Source of the DNA: a virus
Virus record (IMG/VR): IMGVR_UViG_3300032208_000014
Location: 1 to 57,328 of that record
DNA: 57,328 nucleotides
Strand: one strand, 5' to 3'
Of the stretch, positions 8,559 to 49,163 are shown in pieces. Position numbers and translations under genes: made by a program. The notes below the pieces were generated by a model. The model saw only the letters and a list, made by a program, of their open reading frames with translations. It was not told the origin of the DNA and searched no databases. The stretch's first letter is position 1, and each line of letters begins with the position of its first letter.

Positions 8559-8770
8559 TGGATGTTGCAGACTTTTCAAAACATGTTTATAACTTACTAG
8601 CAAGACGCGAAGAGCAAATCGCGGAGATGCTAACATCTGGTGGTGTTCAAAACTTTGAGCAGTACCAGCGGCTTGTAGGCGAGGTACAGGGTCTTGTCTA
8701 CGCTAAAGAAGAGATTAAATCCCTGCTGGAGAAACACATAGACGATGCCGAAGACTTTATACGTTCCTGA
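8558..8770 (+). CDS. Small helical protein of the head module
   Basis: This 70-residue, largely helical protein (QYQRLVGEVQGLVYAKEEIK, then LLEKHIDDAEDF) starts on a TAATG junction and overlaps the next gene by 26 nt. It resembles short helical proteins that accompany head genes in marine podoviruses and some head-tail adaptor helices. No motif fixes a function. Tight coupling to the GroES-like gene downstream suggests co-translation. Confidence 0.6.
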   Translation: MDVADFSKHVYNLLARREEQIAEMLTSGGVQNFEQYQRLVGEVQGLVYAKEEIKSLLEKHIDDAEDFIRS

Positions 8771-9206
8771 TCACATCGCGCAGGCAAAAGACAAACCCTC
8801 AGTTGAAACCGCTTATGTTGAGCAGACAGACAGGGTTCTTGACCCAAGTTTAATCGACAAATCTTTGACAGAACGCTTGCCGCAACCAACAGGTTGGCGG
8901 CTTCTTGTTATGCCTTATGCAGGTAAGGCTAAGACAGACGGCGGTATTTACATCCCAGATCAAGCACGAGAGCGGGAAGCATTAGCTACCGTTGTTGCGT
9001 ATGTTCTGAAACTAGGTCCATTGGCTTATCAAGATCCAAATAAGTTTGGAGACAATCCAGAGCCGTGGTGCGAAGAAGGCCAGTGGGTCTGCATAGGCAG
9101 GTATGCTGGGTCTAGATTTAAGATTGATGGCGGTGAAGTTCGCATTATTAATGATGATGAAGTTATCGCAACAATTCTTGAACCTGATGATGTAAAACAT
9201 GTCTGA
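8745..9206 (+). CDS. GroES/Cpn10 co-chaperonin homologue
   Basis: This 153-residue protein carries a Cpn10 core from about residue 45: LPQPTGWRLLVMPY, then KTDGGIYIPDQAREREALATVV, which corresponds to the mobile-loop and strand region, and an ending SRFKIDGGEVRIINDDEVIA similar to the last strands of GroES. It probably caps the host GroEL to help fold the coat protein, as T4 gp31 and related phage co-chaperonins do. The 40-residue N-terminal extension is not part of the family. It sits immediately upstream of scaffold and coat genes, which fits that job. Confidence 0.8.
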   Translation: MPKTLYVPDHIAQAKDKPSVETAYVEQTDRVLDPSLIDKSLTERLPQPTGWRLLVMPYAGKAKTDGGIYIPDQAREREALATVVAYVLKLGPLAYQDPNKFGDNPEPWCEEGQWVCIGRYAGSRFKIDGGEVRIINDDEVIATILEPDDVKHV

Positions 9207-9216
9207 GGAGTTAAAA

Positions 9217-10119
9217 ATGGCAGAGGCCGAAACGCAAGTTCAGGAGGACGAAAATGTTGAAGTTACTCTTGATCAGTCTAATGAACCTGATGAAAAGAAT
9301 ACTGAAGAAGTTACTGTTTCGTCTGAAGATACGAGCAGCGATAGTCCAGCTTCATCTGATGATGAGTTGGACAACTACAGTAAGGGTGTTCAAAAACGTA
9401 TTAAAAAGCTGACCGAAAAAGTTCGCTTTGCAGAACGAGACAAAGAAGAAGCGACTCGTCTTGCTAAGACCATTAAGGAAGAAAACGAAGAACTAAAGTC
9501 TCGCCTGACAAGTTTAGATACTGGATATTTAAACGAATACGGCACTCGACTTGAAAGTCAGCTTTCACAGGCTAAAGCCGCATATCGAGATGCTCATGAA
9601 CGTGGCGATGTGGATTCTATGTTTGACGCGCAACAGGCATTGTCTAAAATCTCTATAGAACAGGAGAGATACAGACTTGCAAAACAGCGACAAGAACAAC
9701 AACCCGCCGCGCCAGCCGCAGAAACAACACATAGTCAGGTTCAACCCAGTGCTGCACCGCAGGCGACAGCTCCAGACCCAAAGGCGGAAAAGTGGGCGGA
9801 AAAAAATGAATGGTTTGGTGATGACGAGATTATGACGCAGGCCGCGTTTGTCATTCACAACAATCTTCGCTCTGAAGGGTTTGACGGAACCGAAGATGAG
9901 TATTATACTCAACTTGATACTCGTCTAAAGGAACGCTTTCCTAAAGAGCTTGGATCAAAAGAAAACGAGGGAAGTCCGAGGGTCGCCTCCGCTTCAACTT
10001 CCGCATCTCGCAGTACAAAACAGGGGCGCAGGACCGTCAAGTTGTCACCGTCACAGGTGGCTATTGCTAAAAAACTTGGTGTTCCTTTAGAAGAATACGC
10101 TAAGTATGTAAAGGACTAG
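9217..10119 (+). CDS. Scaffolding protein
   Basis: This 300-residue, strongly acidic protein has an unstructured Glu/Asp/Ser N terminus and a coiled-coil segment (about residues 55-110, including KKLTEKVRFAERDKEEATRL). A second helix (YRDAHERGDVDSMFDAQQAL), a Gln/Ala/Pro linker and a basic C terminus (RRTVKLSPSQVAIAKKLGVP) follow. Acidic body with basic tail is typical of podovirus scaffolds, whose tail binds the coat protein. ATG 9217 is chosen because GAGGAG at 9205-9210 lies 6 nt upstream; an in-frame ATG at 9199 would lack a site. Position before the coat gene supports the call. Confidence 0.8.
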   Translation: MAEAETQVQEDENVEVTLDQSNEPDEKNTEEVTVSSEDTSSDSPASSDDELDNYSKGVQKRIKKLTEKVRFAERDKEEATRLAKTIKEENEELKSRLTSLDTGYLNEYGTRLESQLSQAKAAYRDAHERGDVDSMFDAQQALSKISIEQERYRLAKQRQEQQPAAPAAETTHSQVQPSAAPQATAPDPKAEKWAEKNEWFGDDEIMTQAAFVIHNNLRSEGFDGTEDEYYTQLDTRLKERFPKELGSKENEGSPRVASASTSASRSTKQGRRTVKLSPSQVAIAKKLGVPLEEYAKYVKD

Positions 10120-11251: not shown

Positions 11252-12163
11252 ATGGCTATTTCACGCGCACAACTCGCGAAAGAGCTTGAGCCTGGTCTTA
11301 ACGCTCTTTTTGGCATGGAGTACAATAGGTACGAAAACCAACATGCCGAAATTTTCACCACTGAGTCCTCAGATCGTGCATTTGAGGAAGAGGTGATGTT
11401 GTCAGGCTTTGGAGCCGCTCCGACTAAGTCGGAAGGTTCTGCCGTCAGTTTTGACGATGCCAACGAAGCATTCACCGCTCGGTACAACCATGAAACCATT
11501 GCACTGGCATTCTCAATCACTGAGGAAGCAGTCGAAGATAACCTGTATGACCGCTTGTCATCTCGTTATACTCGTGCTCTTGCCCGTTCAATGGCTCACA
11601 CAAAGCAGGTTAAAGCTGCATCTATCCTGAACAATGCATTTACCGCTGGCGCGTCAGCTGGTGGTGACGGTGTTGCTCTGTGTGATGCATCACACCCGCT
11701 TACAAACGGCAACACGTTTGCAAACGAACCCGGAACAGCTGCTGATCTGAACGAAACTTCTTTGGAAGACGCTTTGATCAACATCGCAGGTTTTGTTGAC
11801 GAACGTGGCCTGAAAGTTGCACTGCGTGGCACAAAGCTGATCATTCCGCGTCAGCTTCAGTTCATTGCAGAGCGTCTGATGGTGTCTAACCTTCGTGTTG
11901 GAACTGCTGACAACGATGTAAACGCACTTCGGTCAATGGGAATGTTGCCGGACGGCTACGCTGTCAACGACTTCTTGACAGACCCAGATGCGTTCTTCAT
12001 CATGACAGATGCACCTCGTGGCTTCTTGCACTTTGAGCGTGTTCCTCTGTCAACTCAGATGGAAGCAGACTTCGACACAGGCAACATGCGGTTCAAGGCT
12101 CGTGAGCGTTACAGCTTCGGCTTTTCTGACCCACGTTGCGTGTTCGGTTCACCCGGCGCATAA
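11252..12163 (+). CDS. Major capsid protein
   Basis: This 303-residue coat protein is of the Mu gpT-like/HK97-type group common in marine podoviruses. It shows the characteristic RAFEEEVMLSGFGAAP and YNHETIALAFSITEEAVEDN segments, ARSMAHTKQVKAASILNNAF, a HPLTNGN loop and a C-terminal RERYSFGFSDPR. The N-terminal arm, residues 3-24 (ISRAQLAKELEPGLNALFG and on), is repeated almost exactly in an unrelated small gene at 48704-48769. The gene ends 23 nt before a strong terminator, as expected for the most highly expressed product. Confidence 0.9.
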   Translation: MAISRAQLAKELEPGLNALFGMEYNRYENQHAEIFTTESSDRAFEEEVMLSGFGAAPTKSEGSAVSFDDANEAFTARYNHETIALAFSITEEAVEDNLYDRLSSRYTRALARSMAHTKQVKAASILNNAFTAGASAGGDGVALCDASHPLTNGNTFANEPGTAADLNETSLEDALINIAGFVDERGLKVALRGTKLIIPRQLQFIAERLMVSNLRVGTADNDVNALRSMGMLPDGYAVNDFLTDPDAFFIMTDAPRGFLHFERVPLSTQMEADFDTGNMRFKARERYSFGFSDPRCVFGSPGA

Positions 12164-37934: not shown

Positions 37935-39839
37935 CTAGCCTACTTCACCCCAGTTGTCACCAAGTTCTTGATCAACTTTGCTAGGAATTTTTAACTCTAG
38001 GCTCGTTTCCATAATCTCTGTAATACGCGATGCCTGTTGCTCGGACTCGACATTGAAGCATAGTTCGTCATGCACCGTGAGCAACGGCACTAGTCCCTCC
38101 TTGTAACACTCTACCATCGCCTGTTTGGTTTGATCGGCTGCCGAACCTTGGATCAATCTGTTCAATGCCTTGTATGTAAACGCACGCTGCAACGGTTGCA
38201 TGGGATATTCTTTACGCGCCTTGTCTAACGGCAGAGGCTTATTGTACCCAAACTTCTTTGGTTCCCACATATCAAATCTGCATAACCTGCCAAGTATCGT
38301 TCTAATCTGTCCGTGGGCATCGGCTCTTTCCGCCACCATGTCCGCCAAGCCTTTAACAAACGGAACCCTGTTATGGTACTGCTTCAATAGGTCTGTAGCT
38401 TCATCTTTGGTGATATCCATCGTGTTTGCCAGCTTGCCCTTGCCCATACCGTACATGATACCAAGGTTTACCGTCTTAGCCTGTTTGCGCGTAATACCTG
38501 CAAGGTCTGCCACCATTTGATGGAAGTCAGCATCCCCTTTCTTGTATTCTTCAACCACTTCATCAATAGCATAGTGCCTTTGATCGTTTGGTAGGGATGC
38601 ACAGTAATGCACCAAGAGCCTCGGTTCTTGGCTCGAATAGTCGAAGCTGCCCCATTTGCACCCATCATCCGGCACAAACAGGCCACGAATCATGGACTTA
38701 ATCTCTGGGTCACGCGCAGGGATTTGCTGGAGGTTTGGATTACTGGACGAAAATCTACCTGTCACAGTTCCGCCATCATCTGACCGCAGTGGATGAAACT
38801 CGCAGTGTATCCGCCCTTTGTACGAGAACTTTAAAATGTTGTCGATGAATGTATTGCTTGCCTTATCTAGTTCGCGCAGCCTAAGTATGCGTCCTGCAAT
38901 CTCATGTGGGTGGTTCTGTAAAAACTCTTTTCTGAAAGACGGCTGTTTAGTGTCTTCTGTCCGGCTGTAGTAAAGACCATAGTGGTCAAATACTTTTGCC
39001 ACACTGGTTGCTACCCACGGCTGTACCTCGATTCCTGTGTCGTGCTTAATGCCCGAAACAAGTTCTTTCTTTGCCTTAATTAAGCCAGCTTTTGCCTGCT
39101 CGGCTTTGTCTAGATCTACAGCCACACCCTTCTCGCGCATGTCAAGCAGGACAGGTATCAACGCTGTTTCAATGTCAAAGATTGTCATCAGGCTCTGCTG
39201 TTCCAAATCGATACGCATCTGGTTCCACAGCTTTAAGGTAAGTTCTGCATCTTTCTCGGCGTATGCACCCACAAAGCTAGAGTTTAGCTTCCACATCTCA
39301 GCCTTGGGGTCGATGCCAAAGTCCGCCGCTGCGGCTCGAAGAGTGCGCTCATCCTTACGCTCGTTCAGATAATCTTTTGCCAGATTGTTCAGGCTGTAGC
39401 TGAAGCGGTTCTCGTTCAGTAGCGGCGCGGCAATCATGGTGTCGATTATCGTGCCTTGAACCTTGACTCCTGCCCACCGTAGCCAGCCAGCATCGTATGT
39501 GGCGTTGTGCATAATTTTAGGAATGTCTGGTGTAGCCAACTGATCCTTCAGCCAAGACATCACACGCTTCTTTGAAATGTTGCCCCCGCCCTCGTGTGCG
39601 ATTGGGTAGTATCCAACAAAGTCACCAGCTGCGATAGCCACACCTACAATAAAGCCATCGCCCCTTGCCCAGCCAGGACCTAGCGTCATGATGTTGGGGT
39701 CACTTGTTTCCAAGTCAATGGCAATGTAATCCGCGTTACGCAGATCAGGGAAGTGGTCAGGTGGGAACCAATCTTTCTCGATTGTGTCCAAGTCCAGCCT
39801 GTTCAGATAACTAATCTGACTGCTTTCTTTCGAGGTCAT
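37935..39839 (-). CDS. DNA polymerase, family A, with 3'-5' exonuclease
   Basis: This 634-residue replicative polymerase shows exonuclease residues in IDLET (D42, E44), HNATYD (D116) and YAEKD (Y193, D197). Polymerase motif A is FDYSSQEPR (D400, E405), motif B RKQAKTVNLGIMYG (R451, K455, Y463) and motif C VHDE (590-592). The position equivalent to E. coli Phe762 is Leu459 (codon CTT at 38463-38465), a variant well known in marine viruses. ATG 39839 is chosen because GGTGGAGAG lies just upstream; an in-frame ATG at 39878 has no site. There is no 5' nuclease domain. It is the last gene of the replication operon. Confidence 0.93.
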   Translation of the reverse strand: MTSKESSQISYLNRLDLDTIEKDWFPPDHFPDLRNADYIAIDLETSDPNIMTLGPGWARGDGFIVGVAIAAGDFVGYYPIAHEGGGNISKKRVMSWLKDQLATPDIPKIMHNATYDAGWLRWAGVKVQGTIIDTMIAAPLLNENRFSYSLNNLAKDYLNERKDERTLRAAAADFGIDPKAEMWKLNSSFVGAYAEKDAELTLKLWNQMRIDLEQQSLMTIFDIETALIPVLLDMREKGVAVDLDKAEQAKAGLIKAKKELVSGIKHDTGIEVQPWVATSVAKVFDHYGLYYSRTEDTKQPSFRKEFLQNHPHEIAGRILRLRELDKASNTFIDNILKFSYKGRIHCEFHPLRSDDGGTVTGRFSSSNPNLQQIPARDPEIKSMIRGLFVPDDGCKWGSFDYSSQEPRLLVHYCASLPNDQRHYAIDEVVEEYKKGDADFHQMVADLAGITRKQAKTVNLGIMYGMGKGKLANTMDITKDEATDLLKQYHNRVPFVKGLADMVAERADAHGQIRTILGRLCRFDMWEPKKFGYNKPLPLDKARKEYPMQPLQRAFTYKALNRLIQGSAADQTKQAMVECYKEGLVPLLTVHDELCFNVESEQQASRITEIMETSLELKIPSKVDQELGDNWGEVG

Positions 39840-40092
39840 ATATCTCTCCACCCAGTGCTGCGTAACCTGCGATATCAACCCATGTGTCTGTATGTTCTGG
39901 GCTGTTAATTAAACGCGATAGTTTCAAAGAAATCATTGCCTGTACGACCTGCGCAACAGTAACTTCTTGTCCGAATATGGGACTCCATAAGTCTGCTACA
40001 CGCTGGAAATTTTCAGCAGCATCACCATAGTCCTCGGCTCTCGGACCATTGACCAGTCCCTCGGCTTTTTCTAGAAGTTCTTTTCTGTTCAT
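39811..40092 (-). CDS. DUF6378-like protein
   Basis: At 93 residues, the conserved phrases LVNGPRAEDYGDAAENFQRV, ADLWSPIFG, MISLKLSRLINSPEHTDTWV and DIAGYAALGGEIY fit the phage family I know as DUF6378 (unverified). The helical build resembles small nucleotide-pool hydrolase folds, but no catalytic set is clear. It is coupled to the helicase upstream (overlap 4 nt) and to polymerase downstream. Confidence 0.75.
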   Translation of the reverse strand: MNRKELLEKAEGLVNGPRAEDYGDAAENFQRVADLWSPIFGQEVTVAQVVQAMISLKLSRLINSPEHTDTWVDIAGYAALGGEIYDLERKQSD

Positions 40093-46659: not shown

Positions 46660-47108
46660 AACTGGAGGTTGTCCCTGTAACTACACGCGAGGCGAATGAG
46701 TTTGTTGCTAATTTTCACAGACACAACAAACCAACTAACGGCGGAAAGTTTTCAATCGGGGCAATTTACGGTGATGAACTTGTCGGAGTTGCTATAGTCG
46801 GGCGACCCGTGGCAAGGATGCTCGATGATGGGTTGACTGTTGAGGTTACCAGAGTTTGCGTTGTAGATCACGCACCCAAAAACACTTGCAGTTTTTTGTA
46901 CGGACGGTGCTGGCGCATCTGGCAACAGATGGGCGGCAAGCGCATGATTACATATACTTTGCAGGAAGAGTCGGGGTCTTCGCTTCGGGGTGCTGGCTGG
47001 AAAATAGTCGGGGAAGTAAAACCCACAGAGCGGGGCTGGGACAGGGATAACCGCAAACGAAATTGGCAACCAATCTACGGACAGATGAAGTTCAGGTGGG
47101 AAGCATGA
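46656..47108 (+). CDS. XF1762-family protein (GNAT-like)
   Basis: At 150 residues from GTG 46656, overlapping the previous stop (GTGA). Key phrases FVANFHRHNKPTNGGKFSIG, VGVAIVGRPVARMLDDG, VEVTRVCVVD and TYTLQEESGSSLRGAGWKIV fit the XF1762 family of phage and prophage proteins, predicted to be acyltransferases with a role in modifying DNA or protecting it. Found beside a PP-loop reductase-like gene here and in other phages. Confidence 0.8.
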   Translation: MKLEVVPVTTREANEFVANFHRHNKPTNGGKFSIGAIYGDELVGVAIVGRPVARMLDDGLTVEVTRVCVVDHAPKNTCSFLYGRCWRIWQQMGGKRMITYTLQEESGSSLRGAGWKIVGEVKPTERGWDRDNRKRNWQPIYGQMKFRWEA

Positions 47109-47887
47109 TTTTATCTTGGTGGTCGGCAGGCGTGACCAGCGCGGTAGCAACTAAACTTGCAATCGACAAATACGGGAAAGACAGAGTGCTGCCCGTCTAC
47201 TTCCATATCGACTCGGCTCACCCAGACAACGAGCGGTTCATTCGGGAGTGCGAGGAGTGGTATGGTCGGGACATCATGATCACCAAGTCGCACAAGCATA
47301 ACAACCAGTTCGAGGTCATCGAGAAAGACAAGTATGTAAACGGTCCTGGGGGTGCACGCTGCACTCTGGTTTTGAAGAAACGGGTTCGGGAGCGGATTGA
47401 ACGGGAGATGGAGTATGAGGCACAGGTCTTCGGGTTCGAGTTTTCCAAGAAAGAAGTCAATCGGGCGGTGCGGTTCAAGGAACAATATCCTGGGTCAAAG
47501 CCCATCTTTCCGCTCATCGAGAAGAAGCTGACCAAGCCGGAGTGTCTGTATTATCTTGAGGCGGCTGGCATCGAGCGACCAGAAATGTATAAGCTTGGCT
47601 ACGGCAACAATAACTGCATCGGTTGCGTAAAAGGCGGCAAAGGGTACTGGAATAAAATCCGCAAAGACTTCCCCGAATATTTTGACCGCATGGCTGCAGC
47701 AGAGCGGCTGGTTGGTAACTCATGCCTGCGTGGTGTGTATCTGGACGAGCTAGATCCAAACTCTGGACACAAGCAGAATTATGTCATGCCTGACTGCGGA
47801 AACTTTTGTGAAATAGAATTTGCAGATATCATGCACAAAGATATAGACTTAATAATGAAGCAACCAGAACAGTTGAGTTTATTCTAA
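47105..47887 (+). CDS. PP-loop (PAPS reductase-like) protein with C-terminal clamp motif
   Basis: At 260 residues, the PP-loop ATP-pyrophosphatase signature is SWWSAGVTSAVATK (residues 4-17), with HIDSAHPDNERF after it. Cys pairs in NNNCIGCVKGG and MPDCGNFCEIEF suggest an Fe-S or zinc site. The last five residues are QLSLF, the consensus peptide by which proteins bind the bacterial beta sliding clamp. ATG 47105 overlaps the previous stop. PP-loop enzymes of this type act in sulfur chemistry, including DNA phosphorothioation; a DNA-modifying role is likely but unproven. Confidence 0.85.
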   Translation: MILSWWSAGVTSAVATKLAIDKYGKDRVLPVYFHIDSAHPDNERFIRECEEWYGRDIMITKSHKHNNQFEVIEKDKYVNGPGGARCTLVLKKRVRERIEREMEYEAQVFGFEFSKKEVNRAVRFKEQYPGSKPIFPLIEKKLTKPECLYYLEAAGIERPEMYKLGYGNNNCIGCVKGGKGYWNKIRKDFPEYFDRMAAAERLVGNSCLRGVYLDELDPNSGHKQNYVMPDCGNFCEIEFADIMHKDIDLIMKQPEQLSLF

Positions 47888-48421: not shown

Positions 48422-48601
48422 TTACGTTTTGCCATATTCCTTTCGGATAAGCACCGCCAACTGCCGTGCTATTGTCCGCTCCTCTTCCTCTGCTGCGCTG
48501 CGCAACAAATTATAGGCATCAATCGGGACAGCCACATTTCGGAACTGTGCCTTATTCTCAACAGGGGGTCTACCCCTTTTTACTGCTTGAACCGCTTCCA
48601 T
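48422..48601 (-). CDS. 59-residue ribbon-helix-helix-like protein
   Basis: Starting directly after the stop of the upstream gene (TAA then ATG), it reads MEAVQAVKRGRPPVENKAQF, then RNVAVPIDAYNLLRSAAEEE and ERTIARQLAVLIRKEYGKT. The strand (NVAVPI), two helices and an N-terminal RGRP AT-hook-like core are the layout of Arc/CopG-type DNA-binding dimers. It is probably a transcription regulator. Last gene of the minus-strand operon, next to the terminator. Confidence 0.7.
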   Translation of the reverse strand: MEAVQAVKRGRPPVENKAQFRNVAVPIDAYNLLRSAAEEEERTIARQLAVLIRKEYGKT

Positions 48602-49163
48602 TTATGCCGCCTTTCTTGGTCTGCCGCGCTTTTTCTTTTTGTTTGCGTGGTACTTTTCCCGAGCCTTCCGATTTCTTTCCAGTCGGGCTTTTTCCTCTTG
48701 GTCGTATTCCGTTCCGAACAGGGCGTTCAACCCTGGCTCTAGCTCCCTTGCTAGTTGAGCGCGAGGGATGTTCCGAGCCTTCCCCCGTGTCTCGCGATGC
48801 GGATCCACATAAATCATCTTCTCTTGGTCGTACACGAGATCCATTTCGTCTATCATGTTCACTAAGTTTCTGATCATCCGCAGGTCGCAATCCTCCAGAA
48901 TGAACCTGACGCTTTTTCCGCGCAGCAGGTTTAGTGTGTCGTTTATGACATTCAGTTGTGTTGACATCCTTGTGCCTCCTTACTTCTACTTCGATATAAT
49001 ACCCATGATGACCATCGCCTCTCCTCGGCACGCTGGCTTGCTGGTCCAGCTGGTCAATCACGGCCTCCAACTCGGTGGGCTTACAGACCACCTCCTTCAC
49101 AATCGCTTTCCTGTTTGAGTACAGCGTAATTGTGAAATCTAATATTTTATTTTCGTTCTTCAT
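48570..49163 (-). CDS. Small protein with an unusually long overlapping frame
   Basis: The first 66 codons (ENKILDFTITLYSNRKAIVK, ELEAVIDQLDQQASVPRRGD, YIEVEVRRH) look like a real beta-alpha miniprotein. No in-frame stop follows until 48570, so the frame reads 130 more codons (very basic, Arg/Lys/Ser/Gly) across the whole AT-hook gene in another frame. Either the gene truly is 197 residues and overprints its neighbour, or a single-base error hides a stop near 48950. The N-terminal part is likely genuine; the end is uncertain. Confidence 0.45.
   Translation of the reverse strand: MKNENKILDFTITLYSNRKAIVKEVVCKPTELEAVIDQLDQQASVPRRGDGHHGYYIEVEVRRHKDVNTTECHKRHTKPAARKKRQVHSGGLRPADDQKLSEHDRRNGSRVRPREDDLCGSASRDTGEGSEHPSRSTSKGARARVERPVRNGIRPRGKSPTGKKSEGSGKVPRKQKEKARQTKKGGINGSGSSSKKG
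48602..48967 (-). CDS. AT-hook protein carrying a coat-protein N-terminal peptide
   Basis: At 121 residues. Residues 67-88 (IPRAQLARELEPGLNALFGT and on) match coat protein residues 3-24 at 19 of 22 positions; 13 of the 19 identical residues use different codons, so the peptide, not the DNA, is conserved. The C terminus is a basic helix and KKKKRGRPRK, an AT-hook core. The N-terminal 60 residues (LNVINDTLNLLRGKSVRFIL, NLVNMIDEMDLVYDQEKMIY) are helical. AAGGAGG sits 7 nt before ATG. It could bring DNA and coat protein together, or block coat assembly. Unlike any family I know. Confidence 0.75.
   Translation of the reverse strand: MSTQLNVINDTLNLLRGKSVRFILEDCDLRMIRNLVNMIDEMDLVYDQEKMIYVDPHRETRGKARNIPRAQLARELEPGLNALFGTEYDQEEKARLERNRKAREKYHANKKKKRGRPRKAA

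Follow-up and report, generated by a model that had tools for sequence, protein, structure and literature searches.

The 57,328-nucleotide stretch of viral DNA analyzed here (the window; positions 1 to 57,328 of IMG/VR virus record IMGVR_UViG_3300032208_000014) encodes a small minus-strand protein, P0001, which carries an internal near-copy of the N-terminal arm (N-arm) of the major capsid protein (MCP) encoded by the same virus. The same peptide occurs in eight clusters of viral proteins that are otherwise unrelated, and it is maintained by selection. Reuse of a coat-arm surface, as proposed in an initial annotation of the window, is the best reading of these data. By analogy with characterized systems, we see an even chance that the peptide is a transferable docking tag of the same kind as the coat N-arm, in which case the grip of scaffold or coat would bring its carrier to or into the growing procapsid.

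A coat-arm peptide within P0001

The features that define the match are as follows.

48602..48967, minus strand: tagged small protein P0001, 121 amino acids, comprising an N-domain, the coat-arm peptide, a basic region and an AT-hook-like end (homologues L004-L013 and L055-L073)
48975..48980, minus strand: Shine-Dalgarno sequence AGGAGG, 7 nt upstream of the P0001 ATG
48800..48967, minus strand: conserved N-domain of P0001, residues 1-56 (...INDTLNLLRGKSVRFILED...)
48704..48769, minus strand: coat-arm peptide of P0001, residues 67-88, IPRAQLARELEPGLNALFGTEY
48629..48694, minus strand: basic region of P0001, EKARLERNRKAREKYHANKKKK, residues 92-113, which accompanies the peptide in homologues
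48611..48628, minus strand: AT-hook-like core RGRPRK of P0001, residues 114-119, under the Pfam cut-off
11252..12163, plus strand: MCP, HK97 fold, 303 amino acids
11258..11323, plus strand: N-arm peptide of the MCP, residues 3-24, the other copy in the window virus

Residues 67-88 of P0001 align without gaps to residues 3-24 of the MCP (ISRAQLAKELEPGLNALFGMEY) at 19/22 identities, and 13 of these 19 common residues are encoded by differing codons. The match described in the initial annotation was thus reproduced, and homologues of the gene were found to keep the segment. When all six frames of the window were scanned ungapped with BLOSUM62, the MCP scored 123 against itself and the P0001 segment scored 91, whereas the next-best stretch reached 25. 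Following 60 shuffles of P0001, the best 22-mer in the six-frame window had 8-10 identities and never more than 10/22. Based upon the scan and the shuffle control, a chance match was rejected. AlphaFold2 modelled the segment as a helix spanning residues 69-84, with a predicted local distance difference test (pLDDT) score of ~63-68. Pfam and PHROG searches and a PDB fold search with the N-domain yielded no match. As for the AT-hook with which P0001 was originally said to end, the RGRPRK core is indeed present within the C-terminal end (KKKKRGRPRKAA, from the open reading frame (ORF) translation), but the AT-hook profile PF02178 scores only 14.0 bits there, beneath the Pfam gathering cut-off of 17.4 bits and short of family membership.

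Other carriers of the peptide

Carriers were collected using DNA-pattern scans of IMG/VR followed by six-frame reading, with the MCPs separated by phmmer. Some of the scans fixed the residues after FG to avoid MCPs, which makes residue 22 of the non-MCP copies a biased statistic. With the peptide masked, the non-capsid carriers, all of them from marine viruses, form eight unrelated clusters with nine architectures.

Cluster (a): the window N-domain family
Cluster (b): Myb/helix-turn-helix (HTH)-like repeats with a C-terminal transmembrane helix (L225-L250)
Cluster (c): HTH-like small proteins with the KELLPGLNALFG variant (L369-L378), tandem in two contigs
Cluster (d), architecture 1: HTH-peptide-DUF6378 (L091, L092, L096, L097, L100)
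Cluster (d), architecture 2: DUF6378-peptide-Cys-rich tail (L224, L232, L242-L244, L247, L248)
Cluster (e): winged-HTH proteins, with PF01022 above cut-off (L226, L228, L233, L235, L240, L241)
Cluster (f): a holin-like protein in a head-gene block (L151)
Cluster (g): L368
Cluster (h): L379

The peptide is internal in P0001, while its position among the carriers as a whole may be N-terminal, internal or C-terminal. The KELLPGLNALFG variant is present in MCPs as well as in other proteins, and no MCP lies on any contig with a KELLPGLNALFG carrier. In L369 and L377, two adjoining and related small HTH-like genes both carry a KELLPGLNALFG-type peptide. A strict pattern applied to 84,980 prokaryote genomes returned 16 matches, all of them MCPs and none in the non-MCP list, and a general protein motif was rejected on this basis. 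Non-MCP copies of the peptide were found only in this kind of virus.

The P0001 gene family and selection on the peptide

A direct search with P0001 patterns recovered no relatives, as the patterns missed the family. A neighbouring gene (47063-47887) led instead to 50 related contigs, and alignment of the N-domain yielded 30 loci in all. A total of 23 distinct family members were compared. The peptide is intact in 16 of these, decayed in one (L060, AELEPRLNALFSKEY) and absent from six (L071, L074-L077 and L079). In the tagged members, it stands between the N-domain and the basic tail, separated from the N-domain by a linker of anywhere from no residues to ~80 (L098 vs L102) and accompanied by the basic stretch EAxRLExNRKAREKYHAKKK. 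In the six tag-less members, the N-domain is followed directly by the AT-hook, and its GRP core is conserved in all six. The AT-hook was rejected as part of the conserved design, as P0001 is the only tagged member with a GRP core. The pairing of AT-hook and coat peptide, which the initial annotation had treated as the essence of the protein, is incidental, because P0001 is the only member found with both (n = 23). No other member of the family combines the tag with an AT-hook, and in the seven other tagged families the peptide sits on other domains.

Among the 16 intact family members, the ratio of non-synonymous to synonymous divergence (dN/dS) is 0.083 for the peptide, compared with 0.178 for the N-domain and 0.134 for the tail, and the proportion of synonymous differences (pS) of the peptide is ~0.5. 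The two copies in the window differ at 13.0/14.7 synonymous and 3.0/45.3 non-synonymous sites and are identical at 44/60 nt, with copies across families at ~75-80%. The 11-residue core ELEPGLNALFG is intact in 17/18 peptide-bearing N-domain ORFs, a set recovered by way of the neighbouring gene and the N-domain and independently of the peptide. Selection acts on the peptide at the protein level, because its residues are kept while its synonymous sites are near saturation, and this bears out what had been argued earlier from the codons of the two copies. Given the near-saturated synonymous divergence, a recent duplication or a DNA-level element was rejected; nor are the copies more alike in DNA than protein selection requires, as those of a mobile DNA element should be.

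It is also conceivable that the peptides are inert relics of recombination, with pieces of the MCP gene having been inserted into other genes, where they persist without function. Phages recombine freely, and the decayed copy in L060 as well as the six family members without the peptide are in line with this scenario. The low dN/dS at a pS of ~0.5, the near-complete retention of the 11 core residues and the eight independent carriers all speak against it, however, and we find it barely credible. Two observations had been named in advance as damaging to the proposed reuse, namely related phages lacking the peptide in the small gene and unrelated proteins aligning with it at similar strength. 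The outcome was mixed, since some relatives do lack the peptide (L011, L014, L028, L074, L075 and L079) but most keep it, and unrelated proteins bearing it do exist but all come from the same kind of phage.

One further gene accompanies that of P0001.

48422..48601, minus strand: downstream neighbour, directly after the P0001 TAA, encoding a 59-amino-acid protein in which KRGRPP lies close to the N-terminus and which has a ribbon-helix-helix-like domain

This gene is a probable co-transcribed partner of P0001. In L003 and L049, the P0001-type gene is absent and the ribbon-helix-helix-like gene begins in its place, directly after the upstream gene, as if the P0001 gene had been lost. The best N-domain tree has 4 tag changes and is compatible with a single tag gain as well as with several.

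Genomic context and distribution

Context annotations were made by eye unless a family search is cited. With the exception of L151, the carriers lie mostly in replication blocks. The gene order is helicase, DUF6378-tag, DNA polymerase in L224 and L092; SSB-like, winged-HTH-tag, helicase in L235; DNA polymerase, HTH-tag, PD-(D/E)XK-like in L373; and VRR-NUC-like, tag, DNA polymerase in L379. DUF6378 is tagged in two architectures at the same locus, before polA. The corresponding gene of the window is untagged, and the tag is found on P0001 instead.

39811..40092, minus strand: DUF6378 gene, untagged in the window, at the gene-order position that is tagged in L092/L100 and L224

Seven near-complete or large tagged records (the window, G001, G002, G029, G030, G032 and G038) each encode a tagged MCP and exactly one non-MCP copy, although these records were chosen for the tag and the counts are not frequencies. 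In six records of 40-56 kb, the peptide occurs in the MCP alone, and no copy was found in five relatives (40-57 kb) that lack this MCP.

Such a context could point to an assembly-state regulator. Early in infection, scaffold would bind the arm copy of DNA-binding carriers; accumulating coat would then compete, free the regulator and switch replication or transcription to packaging, such that control is exerted by free scaffold or free coat. Most carriers are DNA-binding proteins or look like them (AT-hook/basic, HTH, winged HTH and Myb-like), they sit among polymerase, helicase and SSB-like genes, and there is usually one per virus. The holin-like and transmembrane carriers (L151 and the L225 type) fit less well, however, and the enzyme-like DUF6378 carriers need not regulate anything. 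We consider this explanation unlikely. A recruitment hub would make use of the same context differently. In this case, the peptide would be the address of a replication and assembly site, with carriers gathering coat or scaffold at the phage DNA or membrane so that procapsids form beside the genome. The carriers with Myb-like repeats and a C-terminal transmembrane helix (L225-L250), the holin-like L151 and the location of carriers in replication blocks would all be compatible with a hub. On the other hand, this group is not known to form a phage compartment, and a carrier is missing from five genome records that have the same MCP. In our estimation, the hub is a distinctly unlikely explanation.

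A proposed docking role for the peptide

The window MCP is assigned to the HK97-fold MCPs by its family matches (PF25209, 1.2e-11; phrog_371, 2.5e-22) and by Foldseek matches to gene transfer agent (GTA), T5, HK97 and other capsids with E down to 6.5e-8, while a PDB sequence search with the MCP profile gave no match. Over 54 residues, its N-terminus shares 89% identity with the MCPs of HTVC023P and HTVC027P. The arm is near-invariant across 43 MCPs, with acidic E11 and E13 invariant, although most of the 43 were fetched using a core-fixing pattern and independent support comes from HTVC023P, HTVC027P and other MCPs that were recovered by protein search. Inspection by eye and family searches recognized portal-, terminase- and scaffold-like genes in the window, and the following head genes are relevant here.

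9199..10119, plus strand: probable scaffolding protein, 306 amino acids, phrog_28737, encoded a few genes ahead of the MCP; this role is suggested by position and composition
10039..10116, plus strand: scaffold C-terminal motif KLSPSQVAIAKKLGVPLEEYAKYVKD, candidate receptor of the arm peptide by comparison with P22
8745-9206, plus strand: GroES-like co-chaperonin gene adjoining the head genes, so annotated in HTVC027P

Among the fetched loci, KLSPSQVAIAKKLGVPLEEYAKYVKD is conserved at the C-terminus in 124 ORFs. The scaffold of P22 ends in a conserved two-helix basic motif, a C-terminal helix-loop-helix (R293, K296, Y292 and S285), which docks on the coat inside the procapsid, chiefly on its N-arm helix (D14, E15, E18 and N4), with R293/K296 binding D14/E15/E18 (PMC9965877). 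Like the P22 gp5/gp8 pair, the window virus combines a predicted N-terminal coat helix bearing conserved acidic residues with a probable scaffold bearing a conserved C-terminal motif, and a comparable docking may be proposed. Unlike the situation here, no non-coat P22 protein is described as an arm carrier in PMC9965877.

If the parallel holds, the coat N-arm helix would be held from inside the procapsid by the C-terminal helices of the scaffold, and an arm copy in another protein could be held likewise, either by that end of the scaffold or in the groove with which an adjacent coat subunit receives the arm. Once held, the carrier would be brought to or into the growing procapsid. For P0001, the basic, DNA-binding tail would then come to lie against the inside of the shell, where it might condense or guide incoming DNA or be delivered with it. 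On these analogies, docking to the coat/scaffold machinery is likely, whereas packaging is only the leading version of its outcome.

Docking is supported by several observations. Firstly, the MCP and eight clusters have the peptide in common, and with it masked the clusters are unrelated. Secondly, purifying selection on the peptide exceeds that on the carrier domain. Thirdly, the scaffold C-terminus is conserved in step with the arm. The peptide also behaves in a tag-like manner, because its position in the carrier varies from N-terminal to internal to C-terminal. Further points in favour are the near-invariance of the arm among MCPs, the synonymous divergence between copies in one genome, the two tagged DUF6378 architectures at one locus, the single non-MCP copy in each of the seven tagged records and the lack of any copy in the five relatives without this MCP. 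Other findings weigh against a docking tag. Most of the tagged genes, being in replication blocks, are presumably expressed before the coat, which suits regulation or recruitment better than cargo. The AlphaFold2 model of the MCP arm, a helix at residues 5-28, is of low confidence (pLDDT ~50). A broad scan of unselected fragments identified a non-MCP copy in ~1/120, and the GenBank genomes of HTVC023P, HTVC027P, 023Pt_psg01, DSL-LC04 and Pag-Yong1 have the peptide in the MCP only. The second copy is evidently dispensable, because many phages with the same MCP have none.

The coat and the carriers might also be recognized through the same peptide by some other shared factor, such as a protease, a target in the host or the phage GroES-like protein (8745-9206) acting together with the GroEL of the host. 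The gene for this protein adjoins scaffold and coat in both the window and HTVC027P, and T4 gp31 performs such a service for gp23. Against this, small DNA-binding carriers are unlikely to require a dedicated chaperonin and the tag varies far less than a generic chaperone site, and we judge a shared factor of this sort to be very improbable.

Comparison with known docking peptides

The T4 capsid-targeting sequence lies at the N-terminus and is not known to copy a coat protein. It takes the internal proteins IPI, IPII, IPIII and Alt into the prohead scaffolding core (PMC3012670). As in T4, diverse small proteins of one phage group have a short conserved peptide as their sole common part, here across eight masked clusters. 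Unlike in T4, the peptide is the coat N-arm, it is placed at either end or inside the carrier, and the carriers lie mostly in replication blocks. To the extent that the T-even comparison applies, it would favour cargo. In encapsulins, short cargo-loading peptides on unrelated cargo dock inside an HK97-fold shell (PMC8346489). The encapsulin peptide is not a copy of the shell arm, however, and the present capsids are scaffolded phage capsids rather than nanocompartments, which sets the tag apart from encapsulin cargo loading. The HTVC023P-type pelagiphage MCPs resemble the window MCP at the N-terminus, but HTVC023P and HTVC027P have a single copy of the peptide, in the MCP, unlike the window virus.

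Docking peptides as a kind are therefore familiar from T4 internal proteins and encapsulin cargo. What is new is the copying of the coat's own arm, its free placement and its repeated acquisition by replication-block proteins. Phage docking peptides have usually been found singly and by experiment. Our literature search, which left most subscription journals beyond its scope, found no report of coat-arm sharing. It is possible, albeit doubtful, that the coat N-arm is a general address label and that one DNA-binding or membrane carrier per virus allows genome replication to sense capsid assembly or ties the two together in space. A more distant possibility is that copies made early act as decoys and draw off host defences directed at the coat protein. 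We know of no such dedicated coupling of assembly to replication in other tailed phages, and there is a real chance that this is a new kind of coupling.

The occurrence of the same arm peptide on eight unrelated carriers, and in two sequence variants, suggests that the N-arm is a self-contained binding module, and the carriers supply ready-made peptides for testing coat/scaffold docking. The peptide also offers a computable route to candidate virion cargo or assembly regulators among the uncharacterized genes of abundant marine phages, and it is relevant to the coordination of replication and capsid assembly in phages.

Additional observations on MCP genes

Several MCP genes of this family have unusual structures. 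The MCP frame of one 56-kb virus (G030:C1:17696-18600) is in pieces with in-frame stops, which may reflect a sequencing error, an intron or decay. A 69322-base record (G069) has two differing complete-looking MCPs of the family, near 9751 and 68635, and these are either two coat genes or the product of a chimeric assembly. In record G082:C1:13700-16500, the MCP gene is split by a group I intron (L426:451-667; Rfam Intron_gpI, 90.9 bits against a gathering threshold of 50), and a similarly short MCP frame, of 94-98 residues, is found in G081, G085 and G088.
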